Shown: positions 42,124 to 43,757 of the stretch, piece after piece
How positions within the stretch are numbered: the first letter of the stretch is position 1
Layout of the letters: each line of letters starts with the position of its first letter
Source: Helicobacter sp.
Lineage (GTDB): Bacteria; Campylobacterota; Campylobacteria; Campylobacterales; Helicobacteraceae
Length of the DNA stretch: 43,757 nt
Direction of reading: 5' to 3'
Assembly (NCBI GenBank): GCA_029264775.1
Contig: JARHYT010000038.1
Span: 1 to 43,757 of the forward strand
The notes under the pieces: generated by a model
What the model saw: the letters and a program-made list of their open reading frames with translations, nothing else
The model's database searches: none
What the model was told of the DNA's origin: nothing
Program-made: the position numbers and the translations under genes

Positions 42124-42789
42124 CTAGAATAAATAAGAATAATTTGCCCCTAAAAATATTTGAAATCCAAATATATTTTCTGTAGCTTTTGAATGGGTAA
42201 ATACACTTTTTGTCAAGAATTCAAATTGATGATGTTTGCTTACTAGAGTTCTTATGCCAAAATTAATACCTGTTGTAAGCCCGCTAAATTGTGGGATACT
42301 AACATTTTGCAATGCTAAAGCACTGCCACCGGGATAAAAAGTCGTTAGATAGCCAGTCGACACACCAACATAGATTCCAACTCTATGTGTATCTCTGCTT
42401 ACAAAATCATGCAGATAATCTATATTTAGATCACCAATTGCTGTTATGCCAGTTACTTTCAAATCACCAAAAGCGTAGCTTGGTGCTCCAATAACACCAC
42501 CTATACTAAGATAGTAACGCATTCCGTTTGCAAAATCAAAATATTTTTGCCCCCCTATGCGGATGTTTATCCCAAAGCCAGCATTTATTTGTAAAGTTTC
42601 CTTCGTGGGAACGCCACCACCAGCAACATTACCGCCTATTTTAAAACCATCATTAGTTAATACACCAATAGATCCACCAAAATCAATTCCAAGAAAAAAA
42701 CCATTACCCCTGCTATCAGCTAGCAAGCTTGTTGCTAATATGCAATTTGTAAAAACAGCCCCAACAATTATTTTATTAAATGCATTCAT
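42124..42789 (-). CDS. Helicobacter-type outer-membrane beta-barrel protein
   Basis: 221 residues: signal peptide (1 to about 24, ending SLLADS), GNGFFLGIDFGGSIG after it, glycine/aromatic-rich alternating strands and a terminal phenylalanine (YSYLF), the barrel C-signature read by BamA. Length is smaller than classical Hop porins; it fits the small 8-stranded outer-membrane family common in Helicobacter. The downstream partial gene starting at 43332 has a similar N-terminus (NNGAFVGVNLGGSITG), so the two are paralogues. A TATAGT (plus 42817-42822, minus strand) and AAAGG precede the ATG. Confidence 0.82.
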   Translation of the reverse strand: MNAFNKIIVGAVFTNCILATSLLADSRGNGFFLGIDFGGSIGVLTNDGFKIGGNVAGGGVPTKETLQINAGFGINIRIGGQKYFDFANGMRYYLSIGGVIGAPSYAFGDLKVTGITAIGDLNIDYLHDFVSRDTHRVGIYVGVSTGYLTTFYPGGSALALQNVSIPQFSGLTTGINFGIRTLVSKHHQFEFLTKSVFTHSKATENIFGFQIFLGANYSYLF

Positions 42790-42907
42790 AAAAAACCTTT
42801 AGTGAGTATTAAGCGTACTATAAAGATCGTCAAATTATTATATATTTAAAGTAAAACTTATTCCATATTTTATGTTTATTGGATTCTATAATTTTATTGC
42901 CTTATGT

Positions 42908-42913
42908 TATAAT
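42908..42913 (+). promoter_or_regulatory. -10 box (TATAAT, in TGTTATAAT) of the small helical protein gene
   Basis: Extended -10 about 29 bases before the start at 42942. Confidence 0.55.
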
Positions 42914-42941
42914 TAATAACTTTCATGATTAAAGGATGTGT

Positions 42942-43223
42942 ATGCAAGGAGAACAAAGTAATATAACAAAATGGATTGATGCATTAAAAATCGCAATCAT
43001 AGAAAATAATATTGATAATGCAATGGAATTAATTGATAATCTACCTTTTGATAAAGATTCTATATTTAATGGCAAATACGATGGGAATGTAGAGCTACTT
43101 GAATATCTTAATATCGCAAAGGAGTTAATTTCTCAGGTTTTAGATATATTAATTACACAGCAAGAAGACGCTAGAAACCAAATTTATAAAATCAAGCAAG
43201 CACGCAAATTTTTGACTAATTAA
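42942..43223 (+). CDS. small helical protein, unknown (FlgN/FliT-like in appearance)
   Basis: 93 residues, almost all helical with heptad-like hydrophobic spacing (IDALKIAIIENNIDNA, LLEYLNIAKELISQV, ARNQIYKIKQARKFL), acidic in the first half and basic at the end. This looks like a small four-helix or coiled-coil protein, similar in size and pattern to flagellar export chaperones (FlgN/FliT), but identity is not demonstrable. Start ATG 42942 has AAAGG seven bases upstream; an ATG two codons earlier is too close to it. Flanked by two outer-membrane protein genes. Confidence 0.65.
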   Translation: MQGEQSNITKWIDALKIAIIENNIDNAMELIDNLPFDKDSIFNGKYDGNVELLEYLNIAKELISQVLDILITQQEDARNQIYKIKQARKFLTN

Positions 43224-43263
43224 TATAAAAAAATATATATTTTTCATATTTAATACTTTTTGC

Positions 43264-43292
43264 TTGATTTGTTTTTTTTTTTTGTATATAAT
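43264..43292 (+). promoter_or_regulatory. promoter with poly-T spacer for the second outer-membrane protein
   Basis: TTGATT (43264-43269) and TATAAT (43287-43292) are separated by exactly 17 bases, and 12 of those are an uninterrupted T-run (43272-43283). Tract-length change by slippage would alter the -35/-10 spacing and so promoter strength. AAGGG and ATG 43332 follow. Confidence 0.7.
43272..43283 (+). repeat. homopolymeric T tract (12 bases) in a promoter spacer
   Basis: Twelve T in a row, the longest homopolymer that I noticed in the window, placed between the -35 and -10 elements of the outer-membrane protein gene. Confidence 0.8.
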
Positions 43293-43331
43293 GCTGAGGT
43301 TATCTTAATTTATTACAAGAAAGGGTGTTGT

Positions 43332-43757
43332 ATGAAAAAGTTAATTTTATCTAGTATGGTTGCCATATCACTTGCTACAGCAAGTGTATATGCGGGTGAA
43401 AGCAATAATGGTGCGTTTGTTGGTGTAAATCTTGGTGGTTCAATTACTGGTGCGATTTCATCAGATAGCAAAAATCCAGCACTTAACTCTTCTTTAGCGG
43501 TTGGCTTTAAAGGTGGTTATCAAGCATATTTTTCTGAACAAATGGGTGCTAGATTCTATCTATCTAGTATAGCTAATTTTGGATTATTAGGTATAGTAGC
43601 CCAAGGAACTGGAGGAACCACAGATAGTGCAATGTCTGTTAATCTAAGTGTTATGGCTGATTTAAATGGTGATTTCTTGTTTGATTTTATTAATGAAAAT
43701 ACATTCTCTACAGGTGTATATACAGGTTTCTTTGGCGGTGCTCTTCTTAATGGTATA
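43332..43757 (+). CDS. Helicobacter-type outer-membrane protein (3' end outside window)
   Basis: 142 codons are visible with no stop, so the gene runs past the window. Signal peptide (MKKLILSSMVAISLATASVYA, cleavage near Gly22), followed by NNGAFVGVNLGGSIT and alternating beta strands with Phe/Tyr/Leu; it resembles the outer-membrane protein at 42124-42789. Start ATG 43332 has AAGGG at good spacing. The promoter carries a T12 tract (see separate entry), which suggests variable expression of a surface antigen. Confidence 0.75.
   Translation, partial: MKKLILSSMVAISLATASVYAGESNNGAFVGVNLGGSITGAISSDSKNPALNSSLAVGFKGGYQAYFSEQMGARFYLSSIANFGLLGIVAQGTGGTTDSAMSVNLSVMADLNGDFLFDFINENTFSTGVYTGFFGGALLNGI

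Follow-up and report, generated by a model that had tools for sequence, protein, structure and literature searches.

The window, the whole 43,757-base stretch of DNA analysed here, is one contig (C59) of a draft Helicobacter genome (1.68 Mb, 100 contigs, 87.3% complete). Its end is also the contig end and cuts a predicted outer-membrane protein (OMP) barrel gene after 142 codons (43332..43757, plus strand, ATG at 43332). A signal peptide can be recognized by eye at the start of the protein, and a likely ribosome-binding site, AAGAAAGGG, likewise placed by eye, lies at 43317..43325, 6 nt 5' of the start codon. On the same strand, upstream, are a -35-like hexamer TTGATT (43264..43269), a 17-bp spacer of the form TG-T12-GTA (43270..43286) and a -10 hexamer TATAAT (43287..43292), the latter overlapped by an alternative -10-like hexamer, TATATA (43285..43290). 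Both hexamers and the 17-bp gap are present where a preliminary description of this DNA had placed them. The spacer contains a T12 homopolymer (43272..43283) whose length varies between relatives and whose context in the window is TTGATTTG-T12-GTATATAAT; at 12 bases it is longer than the roughly 9 looked for in the -35/-10 spacer of a phase-variable promoter. The description had counted 12 T in the spacer, which is correct for the single run, although the spacer as a whole has 14 T in 17 bases; it had also called the promoter otherwise ideal, which applies only to the -10 (6/6), since TTGATT matches TTGACA at four of six positions. A scan for sigma-70-like hexamer pairs over 42780-43757 (978 bases) found 6 sites, compared with 7.1 (sd 2.4) in 50 shuffles, and at this chance level the hexamers alone prove nothing. 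The T12 tract is the sole A/T run longer than 9 in the window, and an Rfam scan of the window gave nothing at gathering scores.

The truncated protein scored 16.9 bits against the Helicobacter OMP family HP_OMP (PF01856), under the gathering cut-off of 21 because the fragment is cut short or divergent. The full-length ortholog (L130) in G006, a relative with a complete genome, scored 25.0 bits, above the cut-off. The modelled ortholog (L033) begins with a signal-like stretch that is followed by eight strands (mean pLDDT 71.5, pTM 0.64) and ends in F, the aromatic C-terminal residue looked for in beta-barrels; the C-terminus of the window gene is off the contig. The earlier prediction of a surface barrel is supported through the full-length ortholog, which models as an eight-strand barrel and passes the family cut-off. 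A sequence search of solved structures with the barrel alignment returned two matches, at E 0.71 and 0.83, and no relative. A second HP_OMP-family gene lies upstream on the minus strand (42124-42789; 24 bits, above the cut-off) and has no long tract, and a 95-codon open reading frame (ORF) without a Pfam match occupies the plus strand between the two OMP genes (42936-43223).

A protein search of the named genomes identified six loci, all in Helicobacter: the MAGs G009 and G010, H. bilis 37372_8 (G003), H. bilis ATCC 51630 (G002), 'H. rappini' 95150_3 (G007), and H. trogontum ATCC 700114 (G013). By these matches the source genome is a member of the H. bilis group, and the relative closest to it is G009, with 92-94% identity in the OMP. 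An uninterrupted tract was found at the promoter of six of the seven clear orthologs, with T13 in G009, G010, H. bilis 37372_8 and G006, T14 in 'H. rappini' and T9 in H. bilis ATCC 51630, compared with T12 in the window, while in H. trogontum the tract is broken up by C's. The tract had been proposed to vary in length, and at this promoter it does so among relatives. The promoters of the four H. bilis-like genomes are almost the same outside the tract, and differ mainly in its length, at 9, 13, 13, and 14. Counted by hand, the spacer is 17 in the window and in H. trogontum, 18 in G010, H. bilis 37372_8 and G006, 19 in 'H. rappini', 14 in ATCC 51630, and 20 in G009, where the -35 is weak. Judged from these promoters, the OMP of ATCC 51630 would be weakly expressed and the H. 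trogontum promoter would be locked. The ortholog count excludes six of the 14 genus genomes (G001, G004, G005, G008, G011, and G012), which have no clear ortholog; their best matches are 29 to 43% identical to the window gene, and the 150 nt upstream of these matches contain a tract in two cases (A14 and T13) and no tract in at least six. The A14 run, in G004, follows TTGACTTAC and lies 84 nt ahead of the start of the match; it may represent a variant of this promoter built on an A tract.

Throughout the source genome there are 49 T/A runs of at least 9, of which nine are at least 11 long (two T12, six T13, and one T14). On the T strand a G precedes the run in all nine of these, versus 4 of the 40 other runs of at least 9 (P 3.5e-7); unlike the hexamer pair, the T12 tract is far from chance. 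The pattern TTGACTTG-T-GTAARAT was found at three of the nine long tracts (on contigs C9, C44, and C86). TTGA lies no more than 15 nt upstream of five of the nine, compared with none in a control window further upstream, and gene starts no more than 120 nt away were seen in five cases on the T strand and in one on the A strand. A clear -10 is absent at four of the nine. Some of the long T tracts of this genome stand ahead of metabolic genes, including ThiG, and a tetrahydrodipicolinate N-succinyltransferase-like (DapD-like) gene is also behind one.

The promoter-tract arrangement noted in the preliminary description recurs, with the same layout, at numerous promoters across the genus. Over 400 kb sampled from G006, T5 to T9 runs numbered 2557, 983, 221, 42, and 5, there were no T10 or T11 runs, and T12 to T14 runs numbered 2, 5, and 3; by crude ORF calls all ten of the latter are intergenic. 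The whole G006 genome has 47 runs of at least 11 (four T11, six T12, 30 T13, six T14, and one T16; mode 13), commonly surrounded as TTGACTTG-T13-GTANAAT. The concentration at T13 could mean that length is held rather than free. Among the 47 tracts, G precedes 38, GTA follows 31, a -10-like site follows 35, and TTGA occurs no more than 15 nt before 21, while the corresponding numbers for 2551 T5 runs are 562, 91, 148, and 163. The base after the tract is G in 45 of 47, and the next two positions are T and A in 35 and 36. TTGA is exactly 8 nt ahead of the tract in 15 of the 21 cases that have it and was found in a control window further upstream at just 2 of the 47. A clear -10 is absent at 12 tracts. 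Of the 47, 34 have a gene start with a ribosome site no more than 120 nt away on the T strand, and 4 have one on the A strand; in G007, gene starts at this distance numbered 19 of 30 and 1 of 30, respectively. Both hexamers are present at 25 G006 tracts, and when the best of several hexamer positions was allowed, the spacers measured 14, 15, 16 (nine), 17 (five), 18 (four), 19 (four), and 24, that is, 16-19 bp in 22 of 25. Across the 14 genus genomes, T12-GTANNNT occurs at 143 sites (26 in G006 alone) and the reversed pattern at 5. T12-GTANNNT is present in 51 of 121 genomes of the family and in 61 of 397 genomes of a phylum sample, including 20 of 296 outside the family (from a table counted by hand).

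ORFs were proposed for these G006 tracts in 43 cases, and 41 of the encoded proteins were scanned, two short ones being omitted. HP_OMP accounted for 10 of the 41. Conversely, G006 has 20 PF01856 matches at E 0.01 or better, 17 of them above the cut-off, and 10 of the 20, all above the cut-off, are directly behind a tract, where 0.3 would be expected (P about 5e-14, assuming 2,500 genes and 40 tract genes). Other proteins encoded behind tracts include a VacA2-domain protein, a Peptidase_S6-domain protein, FkbM-type methyltransferases, a polysaccharide pyruvyl transferase, DUF4156 proteins, GmrSD, two AIG1-like GTPases, a chemoreceptor-like protein, ThiG, and prephenate dehydrogenase, together with several proteins without a family. 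From these assignments, the genus-wide promoter class appears mostly to precede surface and envelope genes. Several tracts are kept across species at other lengths, namely those of the TerB-like gene (T12, T13, and T13/T14 in two copies), ThiG (T13, T13, and T16), a lipoprotein (T13, T13, and T12), and GmrSD (T13 and T14). The metabolic genes behind tracts in G006 (including ThiG and prephenate dehydrogenase) and in the source genome are unexpected for contingency loci.

Of 43 pairs of orthologous tracts in which both are at least 11 long, 24 are unequal, some by 2-3 bases, over six pairwise genome comparisons that share genomes and hence are non-independent, and in assemblies whose homopolymer lengths may be off by one base. 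Differing pairs numbered 8 of 15 between G006 and G007, 7 of 11 between G006 and G002, and 3 of 5, 4 of 8, 1 of 2, and 1 of 2 in the others. Because the partner genome was searched for tracts of at least 11, losses such as T9 are uncounted. The tracts used were 30 of 45 from G007, 21 of 32 from G002, and 15 of 49 from G003, and the 15 may in part include the T19 and T21 runs and the contig-end clusters (C16, C75, and C76) of the latter genome. Gap openings in the flanks (100 nt per side) were seen in 14 of 3001 columns, 8 of 2200, 2 of 1000, 2 of 1600, 3 of 400, and 1 of 400, so that in the four larger comparisons tracts changed at about 9, 13, 23, and 31 times the rate of 13 flank columns. 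Between close relatives the tract thus varies more than its flanks, and variation in tract length between species is supported. A comparison within one genome comes from the tandem TerB-like genes of G006, whose approximately 320 aligned columns upstream of and into the gene differ solely in T13 versus T14 and in C14 versus C15. The latter is an intergenic poly-C run upstream of the T tract in both copies, and by its sequence it is predicted to be another element prone to slippage, next to the T tract in this upstream region.

Homopolymers in the promoter spacers of surface-protein genes occur in Neisseria, where opc and porA carry poly-C; these differ from the window promoter in having a C tract and in belonging to another phylum. 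Closer to the window promoter, Table 2 of a paper on H. pylori lists, for strain 26695, nine promoters with a tract between -35 and -10, including hopZ (14A), babB (14A), hopG (13T), babA, hopU and others; OMP genes make up 15 of the 25 tract loci in that table and are over-represented, and tract lengths vary between strains at five compared loci (PMC4081817). The window promoter and its class resemble these in having a homopolymer of similar length in the spacer and an over-representation of OMP genes. They differ in number, the nine in H. pylori 26695 contrasting with 47 tracts of at least 11 and 26 T12-GTANNNT sites in G006, and in the surround of TTGACTTG and GTANAAT common to the G006 tracts, unlike the H. 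pylori promoters as tabulated. The H. pylori small RNA HPnc4160 (NikS/IsoB) has a T14 tract that the same table positions at -35/-10, within the spacer (PMC4081817); its expression was described as multiphasic, high at T14, low at T16 and intermediate at T18, and its tract lengthens in infected rodents (PMC8035401). This promoter is like that of the window in having a T tract in the spacer but drives a small RNA rather than an OMP. At sabA, a T tract near an OMP core promoter sets output in steps according to its length, though it is upstream of the -35 and the window tract is inside the spacer (PMC4081817). The Campylobacter -16 element TTTTTTTG, described at the cj0183 promoter, also combines a T run with a G directly before the -10, but it has seven T and is not described there as variable, unlike the window tract (PMC3824568). 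No report of tract promoters in the H. bilis group was found among titles and abstract openings in the open-licence literature.

It is probable (roughly 0.7) that the window contains a sigma-70-type promoter with a spacer tract that drives a Helicobacter OMP, with output changing stepwise as the length of the T run slips, and that it represents a genus-wide class. In the proposed mechanism, the T tract would fill most of the spacer between the -35 and the -10 of a promoter driving the Helicobacter-family OMP barrel, and T's would be gained or lost by replication slippage, as suggested by lengths that differ among relatives and also between the near-identical tandem copies of G006. A change in length would shift the -35 with respect to the -10 and alter DNA structure; RNA polymerase binding and OMP output would then change in steps, for which the precedents are those of H. 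pylori. The class to which the promoter is thought to belong would often have the form TTGACTTG-T(11-16)-GTANAAT. The promoter thus probably belongs to a large set, of a kind known from H. pylori, whose output slippage can tune; we infer both switching within a population and an effect of length on expression. Points against this reading are the chance-level hexamer match, the tracts that lack a clear -10, the concentration at T13 and the tracts ahead of metabolic genes.

Two mechanisms fit, a change in -35/-10 spacing and a sabA-like rheostat based on DNA structure, and length-dependent output by either route is favoured. The purely structural explanation, in which length acts through DNA curvature or the helical phasing of upstream contacts by the polymerase alpha subunit and not through spacing, is a credible minority view. 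At sabA, output was multiphasic with tract length and also altered by base changes at constant length (PMC4081817). A search of ordinary G006 intergenic regions for TTGA-N2-N16-18-TANWAT found 3 sites compared with 5 antisense and 4.6 in shuffled sequence, a test of low power because -10 boxes alone showed little strand bias. From this lack of enrichment, -35 elements seem to be unused in ordinary promoters here; if the -35 is not general in these bacteria, spacing may not matter, and the 26 of 47 G006 tracts without TTGA likewise fit the structural model better. That model is less easily reconciled with the position of the sabA tract, upstream of the -35 and not between hexamers as here, or with the fixed 8-nt offset of TTGA from so many G006 tracts.

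It is unlikely that the promoter is an ordinary one, with a T run that is simply a longer version of the T-rich -16 element usual in the phylum and drifts in length without regulatory meaning. C. jejuni promoters do have the -16 region TTTTTTTG next to TATAAT and no strong -35 (PMC3824568), a G and then the -10 follow the tract here as they do in that arrangement, and a -10-like site already follows 10 of 42 T8 runs in G006. However, run lengths are two-moded, with few between 9 and 12, the long tracts are tied both to OMP genes (10 of 20 matches) and to upstream TTGA (21 of 47), and in the H. pylori work cited above output is known to depend on tract length. Still less probable is that the length differences are sequencing or assembly errors in homopolymers; draft assemblies and MAGs were compared and one-base errors at T13 are plausible, yet T9 and T13/T14, found at this one promoter, are four to five bases apart, and 24 of 43 pairs differ, some by 2-3 bases. 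An intrinsic terminator of the small upstream ORF (42936-43223) was rejected as highly improbable since, although the T run begins 48 nt past its stop codon, a scan found no terminator-like hairpin, folding of the stretch is no stronger than that of shuffled sequence (z -0.84), and the 30 nt upstream of the tract never fold below -7.0 kcal/mol at any of the 47 G006 and nine source-genome tracts.

A broader proposal concerns the H. bilis group as a whole and is offered tentatively, being rather less likely than not. In it, the group would possess a genome-wide contingency regulon in which several dozen promoters share TTGACTTG-T13-GTANAAT, in which a -35 that the ordinary promoters of these bacteria leave unused is coupled to the -10 by a slipping tract. 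Tract length would then set, each independently, OMPs, autotransporter-like proteins, glycan-modifying enzymes, lipoproteins, a GmrSD-type nuclease, and a few metabolic genes (ThiG and prephenate dehydrogenase); H. trogontum, with its interrupted tract and a spacer of exactly 17, would represent a locked version. The promoter type itself is already known, and the novelty in the H. bilis group is its scale and common layout. If true, promoter control by tract length would extend beyond the adhesins of H. pylori to become a principal form of expression control in Helicobacter species of gut and liver, with one layout recurring at dozens of genes. Tract lengths, taken from a genome or from reads, would then be a readable code for which surface proteins are on, and the common layout, with natural lengths from 9 to 21, would provide a ready set with which to separate the effects of spacing from those of DNA structure.

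Some further observations concern the distribution of long T runs. Runs clustered at short distances, mostly at contig ends, were seen in G003 (C16, C75, and C76), G004 (C121 and C131), and G007 (C39) and are perhaps assembly artefacts. The most tracts in the genus were found in G012, with 72 runs of at least 11 and also 4 reversed-pattern sites. In G152, from the same order (family f2), there are ten T12-GTANNNT sites and none of the reversed pattern, and a similar class may have arisen there too.
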